Assembly: GCF_020400725.1 (NCBI RefSeq)
Contig: NZ_JAINVG010000012.1
Span: 62,001 to 126,000, forward strand
Reading direction: 5' to 3'
Length of the DNA: 64,000 nucleotides
Source: Streptomyces sp. NK15101
Lineage (GTDB): Bacteria > Actinomycetota > Actinomycetes > Streptomycetales > Streptomycetaceae
In this document: positions 54,348 through 62,309 of the stretch, piece after piece
How positions within the stretch are numbered: the stretch's first letter is position 1
Layout: each line of letters starts with the position of its first letter
Notes under the pieces: model-generated
Seen by the model: the letters and a program-made list of their open reading frames with translations, nothing else
Told to the model about the DNA's origin: nothing
Databases searched by the model: none
Program-made: the position numbers and the translations under genes

Positions 54348-54479
54348 GGCCACCCGCTCGGCCGGGCGTCCCGGGTTCTCCGGGACGCCCGGCTGTTAGC
54401 GTTTCCGGGGGACGAGAAGCACGCGCGACCACGCGAGAAGTGAGAAGCGAGACGGGCAGCAGCACGGGAAAGGGCCGCA

Positions 54480-56405
54480 GTGACCACCGCCGAGCCGACA
54501 CGCGCCGACCGCGCGGACTCCGACCCCGACATTTACCGTGATGCGCATGAAGTTCGTGACACCGACGACGACCCGCCCACGGATATCGGCCCCTCTTCGC
54601 CCCCGCGAATAGTGCTTCCGACGCAGCGGCCCGCCCCGGCCCCGGCCCCGGCCCCGGCACCGTCCGCCCCCGCCCTCACCCCCGCCCGTGCCCCGCGGCG
54701 GAAGCGCCGCTACACGGTCATGGCGGCCACCGGGCTCGCCGCCCTCACCCACGTCCTGTGGTTCTTCCTCTTCGCGAACAGCGGCGGGGACCTGGCCGCG
54801 CAGGACGCCTGGGCCGAGTTCGTCGGGCGGCACCCGGACTCCGCGTACAACCTGGCCTGGTACGGCGGGATGCACCCCGTCTCGTACAGCGTGGTCTCGC
54901 CCTACCTGATGTCGGTGCTCGGCGTCCGCAGCACGATGATGGTCGCGGGGACGTTGTCGGCCGGTCTGACCGCGCTGATCCTGGTGCGGGTGCGGGCGGT
55001 CCGCAACCCGCTGGTCTGCTCGGTCGCGGGCGTCTTCGCCTTCCTCTGCAACGCGCTCTCGGGCCGGGTGACCTTCGGCCTCGGCATGATGTTCGCGCTC
55101 GGCGCGGTCGCCGCCGTCTTCTGCTGGCCGTACCGCTGGCGGCGCAAACGCTGGGCGAAGGCGGCGGTCGCCGCCCCGCTGGCCGGTCTGGCGACGGCGT
55201 GCAGCCCGGTCGCGGGCCTGTTCCTCGGCATCGCGGCGGCGGCACTGTTCCTGAACAAGCGGCGCCCCGGCGCGTACGCCCTGGGCCTCGCCCCGGTGGC
55301 CGTGGTGGCCCTCTCCTCCTGGCTCTTCCCGTTCTCGGGCACGCAGCCGATGGCCTTCGGCTCGACGGCACTCCCGCTCCTCTTCGGCGTCCTGACGTTC
55401 GCGCTCGTCCCGAAGACCTGGCGGACGGTCCGCACGGCAGCGGCCGTCTACACCATCGGCACCCTCCTGACCTGGCTGATCGACTCCCAGATCGGCTCGA
55501 ACATCTCCCGCCTGCCGATGCTCTTCGCGGGCGTCGTGCTGCTCGCGGCCCTGCCGTACACGAGGCCGCGCTCGCGCCGCTGGTACGCGCTGCTGCTCGC
55601 CGTCGCGGGACTGAACTTCTGGATCGGCTTCAAGGGCGTCGACGACGTCATCCGCACCGCCCCGGACGCGTCCTGGGCGCGCGAACTCGCACCGCTCGTC
55701 AACCAGCTCCAGGTCCGGGACGCGGGCAAGGCGCGGGTCGAGGTCGTGCCGGCGTCCAGCCACCGCGAGTCCTCCGCGCTCAGCCCGTACATCAACCTGG
55801 CGCGCGGCTGGAACCGCCAGGCGGACATGGAGCGCAACCCCCTCTTCTACGACGACACCCTGAACGCCGCGAACTACCGGGACTGGCTCGCCCGCTGGGC
55901 CGTCCACTACGTCGTCCTGCCCACCGGAGCCCCCGACTCGGGCGCCGAGCAGGAGGCGGAACTGGTCGGCGAGGGCCTGCCGTACCTGAAGCAGGTGTGG
56001 TCGGACGAGAACTGGCGGCTGTACGAGGTGCAGAACCCGACTCCCCTCGCCGACCCGCCGGCCGAGGTGCAGAGCGCGGAGGAGAACGAGGTCGTGATCC
56101 GGGTCGGCAGCCCCGGCCGGGTCCTGATCCGCGTCCCGTACTCGCCCTGGCTCGCCCTCATGGACGAGAACGGCGGCAAGATCGAACCGCCGCAGGAGAC
56201 GGAGGCCTCGAAGCTGGCCCGTGAGGCCTCGGAGACCGAGCTCCCCAAGGTCTTCGCCAACGAGGAGGGCTGCCTCTTCAAGGCGGAGGCGGACTCCGAG
56301 GGCGACGAATGGACGGAACTCGTCGCCCCGAAGGCGGGCGTCTACCGCCTGGGCGCCCCCTACAAACTCTCGCGCGGCACGGCCTGCCCCGAAGAACTGC
56401 GCTGA
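54480..56405 (+). CDS. Polytopic membrane protein (GT-C-like)
   Basis: A 641-residue protein. A cytoplasmic arm with a Pro-Ala run (~1-80) leads to about 10 hydrophobic segments (~85-395). A large extracytoplasmic C-terminal domain follows (~400-641, rich in charged residues, with Cys near 595 and 636). The first loop reads ANSGGDLAAQDAWAEFV, which recalls the acidic loop of GT-C glycosyltransferases. A sugar-transferring role in the envelope is possible; databases often call such proteins MFS transporters. It is 132 bases downstream of the carboxypeptidase and may share its transcript. GTG start. Confidence 0.7.
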   Translation: MTTAEPTRADRADSDPDIYRDAHEVRDTDDDPPTDIGPSSPPRIVLPTQRPAPAPAPAPAPSAPALTPARAPRRKRRYTVMAATGLAALTHVLWFFLFANSGGDLAAQDAWAEFVGRHPDSAYNLAWYGGMHPVSYSVVSPYLMSVLGVRSTMMVAGTLSAGLTALILVRVRAVRNPLVCSVAGVFAFLCNALSGRVTFGLGMMFALGAVAAVFCWPYRWRRKRWAKAAVAAPLAGLATACSPVAGLFLGIAAAALFLNKRRPGAYALGLAPVAVVALSSWLFPFSGTQPMAFGSTALPLLFGVLTFALVPKTWRTVRTAAAVYTIGTLLTWLIDSQIGSNISRLPMLFAGVVLLAALPYTRPRSRRWYALLLAVAGLNFWIGFKGVDDVIRTAPDASWARELAPLVNQLQVRDAGKARVEVVPASSHRESSALSPYINLARGWNRQADMERNPLFYDDTLNAANYRDWLARWAVHYVVLPTGAPDSGAEQEAELVGEGLPYLKQVWSDENWRLYEVQNPTPLADPPAEVQSAEENEVVIRVGSPGRVLIRVPYSPWLALMDENGGKIEPPQETEASKLAREASETELPKVFANEEGCLFKAEADSEGDEWTELVAPKAGVYRLGAPYKLSRGTACPEELR

Positions 56406-56535
56406 CGGCCCTCCACTGACGGAGAGTAACCCTACGGGTGAACTCCCCATCACTCTGCGCACCCGCACGATCACCTGGCGCTAGTCTCGCGGACGCTGCC
56501 GCAGCCGTGCGGCGAACCGAGATAGGGGCACCCGA

Positions 56536-56829
56536 ATGGCCATCATCGTCACCTTCGACCTCCCCGGCGCCGGCCCGGAGCTCTACGACACGGTCATCGC
56601 ACGCGTGACCGAGGGGCGGGGCTTCACGCAGTTCGCGGACGTGGGCGATCCGGGCCTCGTCTCCCACGCGGCGGGACCGGTCGAGGGAGGCTTCCGCGTG
56701 ACCGAGGTCTGGGAGAGCCAGGAGGCCCTCGAAACCCACGCGAAGACCTTCGGCCCGATCCTGGCGGACCTCGGCCACGCCGACGTGCAGCCCACGATCA
56801 TCCCGGCGCACAACGTCGTCGTCCGATAG
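56536..56829 (+). CDS. ABM-like dimeric ferredoxin-fold protein (97 aa)
   Basis: A small protein with the antibiotic-biosynthesis-monooxygenase fold pattern. AIIVTFDLPGAGPELYDTVIARV, GLVSHAAGPVEGGFRVTEVWESQEALETHAKTFGPILADLG and a final strand are visible. Such stand-alone proteins act as dimers, sometimes without a known reaction. ATG start; transcribed alone. A long hairpin follows at 56867-56902. Confidence 0.8.
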   Translation: MAIIVTFDLPGAGPELYDTVIARVTEGRGFTQFADVGDPGLVSHAAGPVEGGFRVTEVWESQEALETHAKTFGPILADLGHADVQPTIIPAHNVVVR

Positions 56830-56866
56830 GACGGCCCGCTCCCGCTCCCACGAGCGCCCTCACGAG

Positions 56867-56902
56867 GAAGGGGCGGGTACTGACACCAGTACCCGCCCCT
56901 TC
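56867..56902. terminator. Long hairpin at the island left end
   Basis: A perfect 16-bp stem (GAAGGGGCGGGTACTG and its complement) with loop ACAC. It terminates the gene at 56536-56829. It also lies 6 bases beyond the partial tRNA copy, so it was probably the original terminator of the tRNA-Arg gene before the island inserted. Confidence 0.8.
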
Positions 56903-56907
56903 TCCCT

Positions 56908-56940
56908 GTGCCCCCGGCAGGATTCGAACCCGCGACACCC
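56908..56940. other. Partial tRNA-Arg copy, candidate att site (left)
   Basis: 33 bases starting GTGCCCCCGGCAGGATTCG are identical to 58421-58453 except for one base (C at 56931, T at 58444). They correspond to the 3' end of tRNA-Arg up to the variable loop. The rest of a tRNA is missing, so this is the displaced 3' end left by an insertion. The following 330 bases (to 57271) hold no gene. Confidence 0.75.
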
Positions 56941-57271
56941 TCTTCGGAAGAGTCGACGCTCCTCGTTCCCCGTTGCTCCCCGCGAGATCCGGCACGGATG
57001 TGGCACGGTCTCCTGCTGCCGCCGACCGGCACTGCCCTGGTTCGCAGTTCGGCCGGGCGACCGATGGAGCGCTTTCCGCCCGAGGCTGGGCGCACTGTGC
57101 GCGGGGCATGCGCCCCGCTCACTTCCTGTCGCACCGGCCGATGGAGTGGTGGCGCGAAACCGTTTCCGTGGCGACGGCGAGGATCGATCGCCCTCGGCCC
57201 GAGTCGCATCAAGATCGGGCAGCGGACGACCCGACATCCCGGGTCCTCGAATCCGAGAGAAGGATGCGCTG

Positions 57272-57667
57272 ATGAAGACGCCCGTCTCCACGTACGTCAC
57301 CACGGTCCCTGAGACCACGTGGGTGCGCTGGCTGCCCAACGCCCTGCCTGCCGCCGGCTACACCACTCTCAAGAACTCCGCCGACGAGCCCATCGACGTC
57401 ACCAAGATCAAGAGCCCGGACTACCAGAACATCACGATCTACCAGACCGTCGTGGACTCCGAGTCCTCGAAGATGGTGAAGCTCGACAAGGTCACCATCC
57501 CCGCCAAGGGCAGGTTCGAGCTTGTGCCCGGCAAGTACCACCTCATGTTCGAGAAGCCGACCCACCTGATCACCCCCGGCGACAACGCCCGGGTGATCTT
57601 CTTCCTGTCGACCGGCAAGGTCTTCAAGCTGAAGATGCCCGTCCGCACCTCTCCCGAACTCTACTGA
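57272..57667 (+). CDS. PCuAC (DUF461)-like protein without export signal
   Basis: A 131-residue protein resembling the copper chaperone PCu(A)C fold. GYTTLKNSADEPIDVTKIKSP, VTIPAKGRFELVPGKYHLMF and ITPGDNARVIFFLSTGKVF fit it well. True PCuAC is exported and binds Cu(I) through an H(M)-X10-M-X21-H-X-M site. Here there is no signal peptide, and the first ligand region reads TIYQT, so its His and Met are lost. His90 and Met92 remain. AGAAGGA precedes ATG 57272. It lies on the tRNA-flanked island in an operon with the next gene. Cargo function unknown. Confidence 0.6.
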   Translation: MKTPVSTYVTTVPETTWVRWLPNALPAAGYTTLKNSADEPIDVTKIKSPDYQNITIYQTVVDSESSKMVKLDKVTIPAKGRFELVPGKYHLMFEKPTHLITPGDNARVIFFLSTGKVFKLKMPVRTSPELY

Positions 57668-57695
57668 TCCGTCCCACACCACCCGGAGCATCCGC

Positions 57696-58070
57696 ATGGG
57701 CACCTACCACCTCGACCTCGGCGACAGCCAGACCGAGGAACTCGACGACGTCATCCACCTGCTCGTCGGCGACACCGAACTCGACATCGACACCTTCGTC
57801 GCCTCCGACGGCGGCTCGGACGAGCCGCGCCGCGGCAGCCTGGTCATCGTCCGCAACGACGAGCGCAACGCCGCCGCCACCCGTTGGGTCCAGGCGGTCG
57901 AGGACCTCACCACCGAGCAGGACGTCATCATCATCGCCGGCGACCCCGCCTCCCCCGAAGCCCGCCGCCTCCACCTCACCAAGGCATGGGCGGCCACCAG
58001 CTTCCACGAGGACGAGGACGAGGACCCCGAGGCCATCGCCCTCGCCTTCGCCGACATCGCGGTCAAGTAG
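57696..58070 (+). CDS. Island-encoded small acidic protein
   Basis: A 124-residue acidic protein (GTYHLDLGDSQTEELDDVIH to FADIAVK) of unrecognised family. The segment AATRWVQAVEDLTTEQDVIIIAGDPASPEARRLHLTKAWAATSFH faintly recalls tail-tube/Hcp-like proteins, but not strongly enough to assign. It begins 28 bases after the PCuAC-like gene, so it is cotranscribed with it. GGAG lies 10 bases before ATG. No gene is seen from 58071 to the tRNA (350 bp). Confidence 0.6.
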   Translation: MGTYHLDLGDSQTEELDDVIHLLVGDTELDIDTFVASDGGSDEPRRGSLVIVRNDERNAAATRWVQAVEDLTTEQDVIIIAGDPASPEARRLHLTKAWAATSFHEDEDEDPEAIALAFADIAVK

Positions 58071-58370
58071 GCGAACGGGCGTCCGACTCGCGCCTCCAAG
58101 GCGCCGAGCAGACCCAGCCGAAGGACCGGGCTCCGCCCCGCGCCCCTGACTCCCGTTCCGTCTGCCGTCGACCCGCAACACCATGGAGCAGGCCCGGTGC
58201 CGTGTCTGCTCGGCTCTGGCTGGGCCGGCGGCGGACGGGACGGGAGCCCCCGCTGCAACCCACCGGCCGGCACCCGCGTACGGCCCCTCCGTCCCGGAGC
58301 CTGAGCGCCCCCGCCGGAGGCATTGCCTTGAGCCGTCCCTGACCGTCGCCGTTGATGTCAGACGTGGATG

Positions 58371-58416
58371 TCAGAAGGGGCCCACCTCCGAAAATTCGGA
58401 GGTGGGCCCCTTCTGA
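58371..58416. terminator. 22-bp perfect hairpin between island genes and tRNA-Arg
   Basis: Both arms are 22 bp and perfectly complementary (TCAGAAGGGGCCCACC onward) with a 2-base loop AA. It ends 5 bases beyond the tRNA 3' end and can terminate transcription from both sides. Confidence 0.85.
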
Positions 58417-58420
58417 ACCG

Positions 58421-58453
58421 GTGCCCCCGGCAGGATTCGAACCTGCGACACCC
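58421..58453. other. Candidate att site (right), 3' part of intact tRNA-Arg
   Basis: These 33 bases repeat 56908-56940 with one mismatch and restore the tRNA 3' end, as expected when an element integrates into a tRNA gene and brings its own copy. Confidence 0.75.
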
Positions 58454-58494
58454 GCTTTAGGAGAGCGGTGCTCTATCCCCTGAGCTACGAAGGC
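58422..58494 (-). tRNA. tRNA-Arg (anticodon CCU)
   Basis: On the minus strand the 73-base sequence folds as a cloverleaf. The acceptor GCCTTCG pairs with CGGGGGC (with G-U pairs). The D arm is GCTCAGGGGATAGAGC, and the anticodon arm CCGCT-CTCCTAA-AGCGG has anticodon CCU. The T arm is GCAGG-TTCGAAT-CCTGC and the discriminator is A. CCA is not encoded. It reads AGG, rare in this genome type. It is the insertion target of the mini-island. Confidence 0.95.
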
Positions 58495-58858
58495 GTTGAC
58501 CGCTGACAGCCTAGCGGATGGGGGTGACGCAGGTCGCCCCAGTTCCCGTCGAGTGCCCGTGGAGGTCGGCGGGTGGGCTCGGAGGTGCCTCTGACCTGGG
58601 TTGTTCCTGCGGTCGAGTGGAGGGCGGTCTGGGTTTTCGTGTCGTCCGCCGTTCGGGGCGGGTGGTGGGCGGGGCGTGCGACCACGCCTGCGTCGACGAG
58701 GTCCGCACCGGCTGCGACCGCGGGGTGTTCTCTCCGGGGAGGGGTCGTTGCCCGCCGTCGAGGCCGCCCGTTCCGCGTCCAGCGAGTGCGCGACCCCGGG
58801 TGGTGAGCCCGCGACGACGTCTTCACGCCGACCCGTCCGCAAGCCTGAATCGGCTGGA
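58495..58858. other. Gene-free stretch
   Basis: 364 bases upstream of the tRNA gene show no ORF with convincing codon usage, no repeat and no structured element that I can identify. The tRNA promoter should lie in its first 60 bases. Confidence 0.5.
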
Positions 58859-59253
58859 ATGCGCCTTTTGTTGAGTAGTGGGGGAGGTCACGACGCCTAC
58901 GGCCGGGTCGTCATCGACCTCGGCGCCGGCGCCGTTTCCGGGGGGATCGCCGGCGAGCAGACCACGCCGCGTCATCGGGGCGAGGAGGGCTCGCGGATCC
59001 AGGTGCCGATCCAGGGCGACCCGTACCTGAAGGTCGGTCACCCCCTGCCGGCCGAGACTTTCGACGTGAACTGCCGGTCCACGTACACGAGCCCGCGCCC
59101 GCAGGCCTTCTTCTGCCCCAGCCCCAGGGGGCGGGCGCTCGGCTACGGCTTCGAGGGCGGCAACGCCTTCGGTTCGCCCTCCGGGCGCACTCCTCGTGCG
59201 AGGTCTTCGAGCCGACCGCTCCCCACCGGATCGTCATGGACATCGATCACTGA
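58859..59253 (+). pseudogene. Truncated or frameshifted gene of unknown function
   Basis: Codon usage is coding-like from about 58905 to 59170 (VIDLGAGAVSGGIAGEQTTP, GSRIQVPIQGDPYLKVGHPL, ALGYGFEGGNAF). It then shifts by one base to a frame ending RAHSSCEVFEPTAPHRIVMD to TGA 59251. Inserting one C near 59170 would give one continuous protein. The N-terminus is also unclear: ATG 58859 is followed by Gly-rich nonsense, and a strong GGGGGAGG (~58881-58888) has no standard start after it. Family not recognised. Confidence 0.45.
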
Positions 59254-59266
59254 TCCGGGAAGGATG

Positions 59267-59301
59267 ACGACCGGCCGTCGGCTCAGCCGGCGGCCGGTCG
59301 T
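59267..59301 (+). terminator. Intrinsic terminator
   Basis: An 11-bp perfect stem (ACGACCGGCCG and its complement) with a 13-base loop lies between the degenerate gene and the next ligase. Confidence 0.7.
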
Positions 59302-59330
59302 GTTCTCTGGTCCCGGACAAGGAGGTCCTC

Positions 59331-61007
59331 GTGACGACGATCGGTGGGATCGAGCGGCTCTGCGCGCCCGGGGCGCCCTTCGCCGTCGAGGACGGGGCGT
59401 ACGCGGGCGGGCCGCGGACGCTGAGGGAGTTCGCCGAGGTGACCTGGGCCCACGGGGACCGGGTCTTCCTCGTGTCCGAGGACACGCGGATGACCTACCG
59501 GGAGTTCTTCGACGCGGCCTGCGGGCTCGCGCGCCGGCTCGTCGGCGAGTACGGGCTGCGGCCGGGGGACCGGGCCGTCGTGGCCATGCGGAACCTGCCC
59601 GAGTGGCACGTCGCCTTCTGGGCCGCGCAGCTCGCCGGGCTCGTCGCCGTGCCCCTCAACGCCTGGTGGACCGAGGACGAGCTCGCGTACGCGCTCGACG
59701 ACTGCTCGCCCGGGGTGCTGCTCGTCGACGGGGAGCGGGTCGGGCGGGTGCGGAAGTGGGCCGTGCGGAACGGGGTGCCCGGGATCGTCTTCCGCGGGGA
59801 GACCGGGGAGACCGGGGAGACCGGGGAGGGCTCCGCTGTCGGGGAGCCCGAGGAGGGGTTCGTCGCGTACGTCCCGGACACCGATCCGGTGCTCGGGCCG
59901 CCGCCCGTCGACGTCCTGCCCGAGCACGACGCCACCATCATCTACACCTCCGGCACCACCGGGCGGCCCAAGGGGGCCGTCGCCACGCACCGCGCGCAGG
60001 CCGGGGCCGCCATGAACCCGCGGTACTTCGCCGCCGCCGCGGCCCTCGCGCGCGGGGAGGTGCCGGGGACGGGGCCGGCGATCGTGTCCCTGACCGTGTT
60101 CCCGTTCTTCCACGTGGCCGCGTTCACGTCGTTCTACGCCGTCATGGCGGCCGGCGGGGCCCTGGTGATGATGCGGAAGTGGGACGCCGGGCGCGCACTC
60201 GAACTGATCCGGGACGAGGGCGTCACCCACTTCGCCGGAGTCCCCACCACCGCGCTCCAGCTGCTCGATCTCGCCCGGAGCACCGGCGACCCGCTGACGA
60301 GCCTCACGCTGCTCAGCACCGGGGGCGCCGCCGCCCCGCCCGGGATCGTCGCGGGGATCACCGAGGCGTACGGGGACCGGATCGTGCCCCGGAACGGGTA
60401 CGGGCTGACCGAGACCTGCGGCGGGGTCCTGGCGAACGTCGGCGCCGAGTACCGGGCCCACCCCGGGAGCGTCGGCCGGCCCTCGCCCGTCACCGAGGTG
60501 CGCGTCGAGCGGCCCGACGCCGAGGGCGTGGGGGAGCTGTGGCTGCGCGGGCAGTGCCTGGTCCGCGGGTACTGGGGGAACGAGGCCGCCACCCGTGCCG
60601 CCTTCACCGAGGACGGCTGGTTCCGGACCGGCGACCTCGCCCGCGTCGACGGGGAGGGGCGGGTCAGCGTCGTGGACCGGCTCACCGACATGGTGGTCCG
60701 CGGCGGCGAGAACGTGTACTGCGTCGAGGTCGAGGGAGTGCTGCAGGGGCACCCGGACGTCGTCGACGCCGCCGTGCTCGGGGTGCCGCACCCGCTGCTC
60801 GGGGAGGAGGTCGTGGCCGTCGTGCGGCTGCGGCCCGGCGCGGACGCGGGCGCCGGGGCGACCGAGGCGCTGCGGGCGCACGCGGGGAAGCGCCTCGCCG
60901 CCTTCAAGGTGCCCGCCCGGATCCTCGTACGGGCGGAGGAGCTGCCCCGGAACCCGACCGGGAAGATCCTCAAGCGGGAGCTGCGGGAGCTCATCGAGGC
61001 CGGGTGA
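59331..61007 (+). CDS. AMP-dependent acyl-CoA synthetase (class I adenylating)
   Basis: A 558-residue ANL-superfamily ligase. YTSGTTGRPKGAV (~205-217), FFHVAAFTSFYAVM, GYGLTETCGG, RTGDLA and DRLTDMVVRGGENVYCVEVE are present, with the A10 lysine in NPTGKILKRE. A GETGETGETG run (in-frame 9-bp repeats) is in the N-terminal half. Medium- or branched-chain acid activation is likely; specificity cannot be read. GTG follows AAGGAGG. No TCTGACG operator upstream, so it is probably outside that regulon. Confidence 0.88.
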   Translation: MTTIGGIERLCAPGAPFAVEDGAYAGGPRTLREFAEVTWAHGDRVFLVSEDTRMTYREFFDAACGLARRLVGEYGLRPGDRAVVAMRNLPEWHVAFWAAQLAGLVAVPLNAWWTEDELAYALDDCSPGVLLVDGERVGRVRKWAVRNGVPGIVFRGETGETGETGEGSAVGEPEEGFVAYVPDTDPVLGPPPVDVLPEHDATIIYTSGTTGRPKGAVATHRAQAGAAMNPRYFAAAAALARGEVPGTGPAIVSLTVFPFFHVAAFTSFYAVMAAGGALVMMRKWDAGRALELIRDEGVTHFAGVPTTALQLLDLARSTGDPLTSLTLLSTGGAAAPPGIVAGITEAYGDRIVPRNGYGLTETCGGVLANVGAEYRAHPGSVGRPSPVTEVRVERPDAEGVGELWLRGQCLVRGYWGNEAATRAAFTEDGWFRTGDLARVDGEGRVSVVDRLTDMVVRGGENVYCVEVEGVLQGHPDVVDAAVLGVPHPLLGEEVVAVVRLRPGADAGAGATEALRAHAGKRLAAFKVPARILVRAEELPRNPTGKILKRELRELIEAG

Positions 61008-61037
61008 CCCGGTGCCGTGCCGAGTCTGCCGGAGGCC

Positions 61038-62309
61038 TCACCGCCGGGTGATCCGGACCCGGTACGTTCCCGCCCCGTCCTCGTCGAGGACGGTGATGCG
61101 GATGCCGTTGGCGTGGTCCGTGAAGGTCTCGCCGGGGCCGTACGGGGCGTCCGACAGTTCCGCGTGGACGTTGGCCCGGCGGGTGCAGCCGCCGCTGGCC
61201 CGGTCGCTGTCGGCCACGGTCACCGGGCCGTGGCCGGTGTCCACGTCGGACTCCACCCGGTAGACGAGGACGCCCTGCTCGCAGACGGCCTCGTCGTTGC
61301 CGTCCTTGCTGCGGACCTCGACGGCGTATCCGGAGGTGCCGGAGAGCGGGACGAAGGCGAGCTTGGGGCCTCCGGAGACCGCGAGCGGGGTGAGGCTGTA
61401 GTCCCCGGTCCCGGGCGTCGAGGCGCAGCTGACCTGGTCGTTGTCCAGCCAGCCCAGCTTCCACTTGTGCCAGCCGAGGAGGTCGTTGTTGGCGCCCCAG
61501 TCCTCGGACATGATGTCCCAGTGGCCGACGGCCCCGCCGCCGTCGGAGGTGTAGAGGTCGGGCAGACCGAAGACGTGGCCGTTCTCGTGGGGCAGGACGC
61601 GGTAGCCGGTCTCGGCGAAGCTGCCGGAGCCGTCGTCCTGGCGGCTGTAGACGAACGACGTGTTGGCGAGCGGCACGCCGTCGGCGTAGGGGGCGTCGTC
61701 GTTGCCGGAGAAGGTCACGGACAGGACGGTGTCGAGGGCGGAGGGCCCGGCGTTCGGCGTGACCAGGACGTTGACCAGGTCGTAGGTGCTGAAGTCCACC
61801 CGCGGGTCGGCGGTCTTCACGATGTCCTCGACGAGGGAGCGGTAGCCCGGCTCGTACGGTGAGCCGCGCTCTATGCCGTACGAGGAGAACGGCCGGGGCA
61901 TCCGCAGCCAGTCGGGTATCGGAGCCTCGGCCTGGTAGTGCAGGCGCCCGTACGAGCTGGTGCGGAACCAGTCGGCGGTCTGCGGGAAGAACTCCCGGAA
62001 GCGACCCATCGCCGTGCCGTCCCCGGGTGCGTCCGAGAAGTCGATCATCAGGTTGAGGGCCCTGACGCGGCCCGTGGAGCGCACGTACCCGGGGGCGGTG
62101 GGCAGCCCCTCCGACATCTGCACGCCCATCGTGGTGGTGATGCGGCACGGTCCCAGCTGGGCGCCGGTCGGCGCGGCGGCGACGGGGCCGGCCGAGGCCG
62201 GGGCGGGCCCGGGGAGGGTGGTGCTCGCCGAGGCGAGCAGGGTGAGGGAGAGCGCCGTGGCCGCCGCCAGGGCGACGGGTCTGCGTATCCGTCGGCGGGG
62301 GTGCTGCAT
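61038..62309 (-). CDS. Secreted M6-family metalloprotease
   Basis: A 423-residue exported protease. The signal peptide is VALAAATALSLTLLASASTTLPGPAPASA. The M6 domain has LMIDFSDAP, the zinc motif HENGHVFGLPDLY (His241, Glu242, His245), and HWDIMSEDWGANNDLLGWHKWKLGW with a Met-turn-like DIM. The C-terminal beta-domain (~330-423) binds surfaces or completes the fold. Relatives include immune inhibitor A. Convergent with the ligase gene. The role may be nutrient release or development. Confidence 0.88.
   Translation of the reverse strand: MQHPRRRIRRPVALAAATALSLTLLASASTTLPGPAPASAGPVAAAPTGAQLGPCRITTTMGVQMSEGLPTAPGYVRSTGRVRALNLMIDFSDAPGDGTAMGRFREFFPQTADWFRTSSYGRLHYQAEAPIPDWLRMPRPFSSYGIERGSPYEPGYRSLVEDIVKTADPRVDFSTYDLVNVLVTPNAGPSALDTVLSVTFSGNDDAPYADGVPLANTSFVYSRQDDGSGSFAETGYRVLPHENGHVFGLPDLYTSDGGGAVGHWDIMSEDWGANNDLLGWHKWKLGWLDNDQVSCASTPGTGDYSLTPLAVSGGPKLAFVPLSGTSGYAVEVRSKDGNDEAVCEQGVLVYRVESDVDTGHGPVTVADSDRASGGCTRRANVHAELSDAPYGPGETFTDHANGIRITVLDEDGAGTYRVRITRR

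Follow-up and report, generated by a model that had tools for sequence, protein, structure and literature searches.

A tRNA-Arg-flanked island with two intact genes

The window (the whole 64-kb stretch of DNA that was analyzed) belongs to a Streptomyces draft genome of 229 contigs (G000). It contains a single tRNA gene, a tRNA-Arg(CCT), whose 3' part is repeated, with a single mismatch over 33 bp, at 56908-56940. The displaced copy is 88% identical to the intact gene over 48 nt and differs from it at 5 of 44 bp, with the mismatches grouped at the far end. When both strands of the whole window were scanned with up to nine mismatches allowed, a tRNA-Arg 34-mer was present at these two sites only. 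For a given 33-mer with at most one mismatch in 64 kb, the chance expectation is around 2e-13 if equal base frequencies are assumed. Each copy is accompanied by a perfect hairpin: the left one lies outside the left tRNA copy and has 16-bp arms and a 4-nt loop, the right one lies inside the right tRNA copy and has 22-bp arms and a 2-nt loop. Two intact open reading frames, gene 1 (131 aa) and gene 2 (124 aa), are located between the tRNA copies (Table 1). An earlier note on this DNA had described the two 33-bp copies, the hairpins and the two small genes as they are reported here, and had seen no integrase. In the window stretch 54401-61100, tblastn likewise gave no match, either with the integrases of AICEs found at the same site in other genomes (E up to 0.05) or with the Tra and Rep proteins of the AICEs of genomes G004 and G100; the last codons are all that survives of an integrase. 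A scan for promoter and terminator consensus sequences found nothing. At 58898-59254, to the right of the tRNA, what looks like a gene relic matches G004 DNA of the same locus at 78%, in inverted orientation.

Table 1. Features of the island and of its flanks, in window coordinates
Feature	Position	Strand	Remarks
Left flanking gene	56536..56829	+	Weak, sub-threshold ABM-domain similarity; conserved beside tRNA-Arg in relatives
Left hairpin	56867..56902	-	Probably the original tRNA-Arg terminator
Displaced tRNA-Arg 3'-end copy (attL-like), decayed	56908..56950	-	Mismatches: 1 in the first 33 bp, 5 in 44 bp
End repeat X, GGCACG-N3-GTGGCAC	56991..57006	+	Taken as arm-type site of one AICE type
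Gene 1, PCuAC-domain protein, 131 aa	57272..57667	+	No evident signal peptide
Gene 2, compact 124-aa protein; predicted fold tail-tube/Hcp-like	57696..58070	+	
Segment common, in part or whole, to AICEs or AICE remnants of G100, G262 and G315	58133..58335	.	
Integrase scar, last two sense codons and stop (CGT CCC TGA)	58334..58342	+	Identical letters at the integrase end in G315, G004 and G100
End repeat Y, GATGTCA-N6-GATGTCA	58354..58373	+	Taken as arm-type site of the tRNA-Arg AICE type
Right hairpin, element-derived	58371..58416	-	Now adjoins the tRNA 3' end
Intact tRNA-Arg(CCT)	58420..58494	-	3' part corresponds to attR
Right flanking gene, AMP-binding enzyme	59331..61007	+	Also adjoins the tRNA in G248 and G315

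Occupancy of the same tRNA-Arg site in related genomes

We searched for the left flanking gene in 295 genomes of the genus and, among the 19 other genomes with a listed match, resolved five relatives at the tRNA (G248, G004, G100, G262 and G315). The remaining 14 loci, of about 3.3 kb each, contained no tRNA-Arg 3' copy with up to seven mismatches in 33. The site is empty in G248, where the flank and a hairpin are followed by an intact tRNA-Arg(CCT) and then by the same AMP-binding gene as in the window. The other four relatives carry elements at this tRNA. G004 and G100 host elements of 11,142 and 11,607 bp, respectively, each bounded by two tRNA 3' copies, G262 has stretches of 2,835 and 2,763 bp, and G315 has stretches of 1,342 and 1,258 bp between flanks that are 91% identical to those of the window. 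Because one relative has an empty site and four have other elements at the same tRNA, the comparison supports an insertion at the tRNA-Arg 3' end, as had been proposed from the window.

The relatives also bear on the two hairpins. In sequence and position, the left hairpin corresponds to the one next to the leftmost copy in G315, and the empty site of G248 also has a hairpin there, in agreement with its earlier assignment as the old tRNA terminator. The right hairpin, which had been attributed to the element, has the same position as in the right ends of the elements of G004, G100, G262 and G315 that bear the Y repeats described below. On the other hand, the remnants of G315 at this very tRNA argue against the view that the size of the island is unusually small. 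The cargo stretch of the window has no DNA match at this site in the five resolved relatives; they therefore do not all share the same genes and flanks, the pattern that the earlier note had associated with an old tRNA duplication. Across the entire genomes of these five relatives, the best matches to gene 1 are weak (E 6e-4 to 8e-7).

Two of the loci show further structure. The tandem remnants of G315 (L074, C11:221500-229900) consist of a first one with an integrase fragment and Y repeats, and a second one with X repeats and a 194-aa gene. In G100 (L077), a hairpin like those of the right ends with X repeats precedes the left att copy, left of position 2960, which suggests that one more decayed element lies between the AICE and the flanking gene.

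Complete-looking AICEs, integrase traces and end repeats

The elements of G004 and G100 contain a tyrosine-type integrase adjoining the tRNA, an FtsK-like Tra, a Rep-like protein and GntR-like regulators, all named by eye from the translations rather than by a family scan. This is the layout of AICEs, and both elements look like complete AICEs of about 11 kb. Their integrases are 92% identical, and in G004 Tra and Rep appear to share a single 828-aa frame. Parts of the integrase are retained in the left remnant of G315 (C-terminal part, 77-81% identity) and in the right remnant of G262 (residues 285-380, 88-93%). In the window, the integrase 3' end is reduced to the scar and is followed by the GATGTCA-N6-GATGTCA repeat and by the hairpin, the order also found past the integrase stop in G315, G004 and G100.

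Pairs of Y repeats occur close to each end of the G004 element, the left remnant of G315 and the composites in G100 and G262. The X repeat lies near both ends of the right remnant of G315, twice inside the G262 composite and once in G100; in both G100 and G262 it is found approximately 500 bp inside a Y left end. It is also located close to integrase-like sequences: about 20 bp past a second integrase match (26-27% identical) in G262, and between an integrase-like frame and a tRNA-Gly in G030. The exact 18-base left-end motif was detected in 2 of the 61 genomes searched, namely the window's own genome and G030. The window itself has X only at its left end and Y only at its right end. In a control of 85,668 bases we counted one match to Y (up to three mismatches) and four to X (up to two mismatches), with the reservation that both patterns were derived from the same sequences in which they were counted; five weaker matches to X or Y, with two to three mismatches, lie elsewhere within the same loci. 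From their position and spacing, X and Y would be the arm-type sites of the integrases.

Gene 1 encodes a PCuAC-like protein with no evident signal peptide

The protein encoded by gene 1 matches the PCuAC family (PF04314, E 7e-20, 71.3 bits compared to a gathering cut-off of 29.4) and the solved PCuAC proteins TTHA1943 and SCO3965. The usual members of this family are extracytoplasmic and bear an export signal, and copper chaperones among them share the motif H(M)X10MX21HXM. Gene 1 departs from them in three respects. First, it has no evident signal peptide: a start at the in-frame GTG of position 57146 would lengthen it by 42 residues, which do not resemble one. Second, the full copper motif is absent from all eight sequences of the gene 1 family, where three of the four ligands are kept (Met68 and His90 in all eight, Met92 in seven) and the first one, His, is replaced by Tyr57 in all eight. 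Third, the family forms a clade apart from four ordinary Streptomyces PCuAC sequences (100/100), inside which the order is not resolved. The dN/dS values range between 0.34 and 0.62 in the 21 of 28 pairs with computable dS, and are rough since third positions of the actinobacterial copies are nearly all G or C.

Close relatives of gene 1 are rare. Of 392 genomes of the genus, four have one, namely the window's own and three others with 83, 74 and 66% identity, and the further matches among those listed do not exceed 34%. A scan of genome contigs, which used two peptide patterns only, returned four loci, in Mycetohabitans endofungorum, in Actinomadura rupiterrae and on two contigs of Streptomyces sp. 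CBMA156. When 65 genomes around A. rupiterrae were searched, A. rupiterrae itself was the only one with a close copy. One more copy resides on an IMG/VR contig. The relative in the betaproteobacterium M. endofungorum (L038:5825-6283) has a signal-like start and is 82-84% identical to the window protein, with a GC3 of 0.39 compared to 0.95. Judged by these values, it looks like an ameliorated cross-phylum transfer.

Gene 2 is predicted to have a tail-tube fold

Gene 2 has no Pfam match and only weak matches in sequence libraries. The gp19 family (PF06841) does not match the window protein, and the best of six members of the gene 2 family reaches 13.4 bits compared to a cut-off of 28.2. Profile comparison with three Streptomyces CIS tubes returned 96.4% over the full length (residues 2-124), while the unrelated gene 1 returned 0.4%. 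The three tubes do match PF06841, and in one of their loci a neighboring gene matches the sheath families PF04984 and PF17482. When two more CIS tubes, taken from viral contigs, were included in the alignment, a structural model of gene 2 had a pLDDT of 77.3 and a pTM of 0.69, compared to a pLDDT of 39.7 for the model built from three sequences without CIS tubes; the fold is thus supported, but depends on the addition of these two tubes. Nearly all of the 50 listed PDB matches of the model are Hcp, tail-tube, other tail, neck or baseplate proteins, with Z up to 10.5 and Foldseek E-values no lower than 4e-4; among the viral matches with a name, many are tail tubes. A tail-tube/Hcp-like fold is therefore predicted for gene 2.

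HMMER searches against the PDB gave similar scores to a phage tail protein (8bl4, E 0.025) and to IspH (E 0.031). We rejected the latter identity because profile comparison returned 36.5% over 62 columns, compared to 96.4% over the full length for the tube. Weak matches to gene 2 in other genomes were also discarded: those in G035 and G018 are CIS tubes, and those in G390, G417 and G499 are, by eye, a broken CIS tube and two IspH-type proteins. The broken CIS tail-tube gene of G390 (contig 12, L079) lies beside a transposase-like frame. Between-clade dN/dS values of gene 2 (1.17-1.62 in eight pairs) were not used as evidence because its third positions are approximately 92-97% G+C.

The two genes occur together in different settings

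The earlier note had rightly recognized the PCuAC-like gene among the cargo, but had overlooked the tail-tube-like nature of gene 2 and the fact that the two genes travel together. We found the pair in a fixed order in four other Streptomyces and on one phage contig. Gene 2 follows gene 1 by 28-35 bp in the window, in G342, G393, G256 and CBMA156, and on the viral contig; neither the M. endofungorum nor the A. rupiterrae genome yielded a gene 2. This distribution parallels the N-termini of the gene 1 proteins, as judged by eye. All six paired proteins start at about the signal cleavage position of the signal-bearing ones, with a ribosome-binding-like stretch ahead, and both unpaired proteins have a signal-like N-terminus.

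The surroundings of the pair vary. The window and G342 share 90% DNA similarity over 811 bp, a stretch that begins 12 bp ahead of gene 1 and ends with the stop codon of gene 2, and in G342 the pair lies 12 kb from the end of a large contig, beside a transposase-like frame. Transposase-like frames are present on both sides in G256, and ordinary chromosomal genes, identified by eye, surround the pair in G393 and CBMA156. On the viral contig, the pair is hosted between an AAA-ATPase gene and a tail-type gene, both related to genes of phage Gilgamesh and the latter also to ZL12; other genes occupy the corresponding interval in Gilgamesh. Two contigs of CBMA156 (L040 and L041) are identical over 12,393 bp around the pair, owing to a duplication, a terminal repeat or an assembly effect. 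Collections of plasmids and phages gave no match to gene 2 and only distant PCuAC matches, two further scans of viral contigs gave no new carrier of the pair, and a literature search returned no paper with both PCuAC and prophage. A CIS sheath (PF17482) and a gp19 tube (PF06841) are present in G342, G393 and G256; neither the sheath nor another gp19 tube was found in the window genome.

Origin and state of the island

With a probability of around 0.85, we interpret the island as a deletion remnant of AICEs that were once integrated at the tRNA-Arg(CCT) 3' end. The earlier note had regarded it as a minimal cargo island in its own right; the integrase scar and the differing end repeats point instead to a remnant. 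Comparison with the relatives supports a scenario in which the insertion of an element would have pushed the old tRNA 3' end and its terminator leftwards and brought a new tRNA 3' end and hairpin on the right. In the same comparison, various elements occupy the site in relatives, at times in tandem, and the window has lost the mobility genes and retains the last integrase codons and the end repeats. We further infer that elements of two integrase types, with X and Y end repeats, accreted at the site and that deletions joined an X left end to a Y right end; both cargo genes are still intact. Accretion of two AICE types followed by deletion is the simplest reading of the X-left and Y-right ends. 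One internal deletion within a composite like those of G100 and G262, which have X inside a Y left end, would also do.

Decayed AICE remnants and accretion at tRNA-Arg have already been reported in Streptomyces (PMC9513070), as have AICE remnants and tandem AICEs at tRNA-Arg (PMC3218068), and the island therefore adds one more example to a known kind. It resembles the remnants described in PMC9513070 in the direct repeats, the leftover cargo, the lost or partial integrase, the empty site elsewhere and the presence of several elements per tRNA-Arg. It differs from those presented there in that only the last codons of the integrase are left and the repeats at the two ends are not alike; the example with partial integrases that is treated in detail in that source concerns another site, a glycosyltransferase gene. 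With the AICEs of G004 and G100, the island shares the att core, the right-end repeats, the hairpin and the integrase end, whereas those elements retain int, tra and rep and have other cargo. No int, tra or rep lies between its att sites, so it does not have the att-tra-rep-int-att organization that defines an AICE. Nor is it a DAICE, for which PMC9513070 gives the presence of traB with int and/or rep missing, as Tra has no match around the island. It does have what characterizes an AICE remnant, namely direct repeats to which those of a complete AICE at this tRNA are related, and residual AICE sequence in addition to them.

The cargo pair may instead have entered an already decayed remnant by illegitimate recombination, in which case it was never AICE cargo. 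The similarity to G342 is confined to the two genes and the ribosome-binding site, the matches to other copies stop within the same limits, and the pair is also found in non-AICE settings. However, the pair sits between the left X repeat and the segment shared with other AICEs of this site, an interval where the complete-looking G100 AICE has a different cargo gene, and we consider late entry unlikely.

As a deletion remnant, the island is probably immobile, because the integrase is gone and attL and attR differ at 5 of 44 positions. Since the ends are mismatched and attL has decayed, it would hardly be excisable even by a helper integrase. CIMEs are elements mobilizable in cis that have att sites without recombination or conjugation genes; the island is like them in its gene content, but its mismatched ends make mobilization unlikely. 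A minimal unit that is still mobile, for which an AICE integrase with matching att specificity would provide excision in trans in a CIME-like or satellite-like manner, would be in line with the retention of both att copies and end repeats, with the tandem arrays in G315 and G262, and with the helper mobilization of defective AICEs discussed in PMC9513070. We regard it as very improbable given the mismatched att copies, the different repeats at the two ends, and the occurrence of the pair elsewhere without these ends, as in the 811 bp shared with G342. Finally, an old tRNA duplication followed by divergence without any insertion, suggested by the repeat being part of a tRNA, is contradicted by the empty site, the AICE-type right end and the integrase scar, and its probability is close to nil.

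Possible function of the gene pair

We tentatively favor a model in which the gene 2 product would assemble into a tail-tube/Hcp-like ring and, in the cytoplasm, bind or carry the PCuAC-like protein that lacks a signal. A somewhat bolder and rather doubtful proposal is that of an undescribed mobile module, in which a stand-alone miniature tail-tube ring would have captured a formerly secreted PCuAC protein and would keep it cytoplasmic as a client or weapon; the module would move among AICE remnants, phages and chromosomes, with a gene 1 that is shared across phyla. The auxiliary Hcp modules of T6SS, as described in PMC9765294, are similar in being mobile and in combining a tube protein with an adjacent protein; here, unlike there, no injection machine was found in the window genome and gene 1 has no recognized toxin domain. 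Gene 2 also differs from the gp19/Hcp tubes of Streptomyces CIS, which it resembles in the full-length profile match and the predicted fold, in being shorter, below the Pfam threshold and, in the window, outside a tail gene cluster.

It is unlikely, although conceivable, that gene 2 mimics a tube and thereby poisons the assembly of incoming phage tails or injection-system tubes, with gene 1 as its partner. The predicted fold and the position of the pair between an AAA-ATPase and a tail-type gene on the phage contig are consistent with such tail interference, and tail-assembly blocking, as in the Tab and Tai defenses, is known to be borne by mobile elements (PMC10884400, PMC11364771). Against it, a PADLOC 2023 scan gave one weak match (DrmC, E 0.03), CIS sheath and tube genes are also present in three genomes with the pair, and the role of the PCuAC fold is left unexplained. 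The idea of an effector of the host's own injection system is weakened because no CIS sheath or other gp19 tube was found in the window genome, which also speaks against a delivery role of gene 2 there.

The island illustrates the degree to which AICEs can decay at a tRNA hot spot with two cargo genes still intact, and small tRNA-flanked units are not necessarily mobile. The cargo is the less ordinary part of it, as the pair is rare, intact and found in several unrelated places. The association between the absence of a signal in gene 1 and an adjacent tail-tube-like gene (six paired proteins without a signal and two unpaired with one, among the eight distinct relatives found) suggests a new use of the tube fold.
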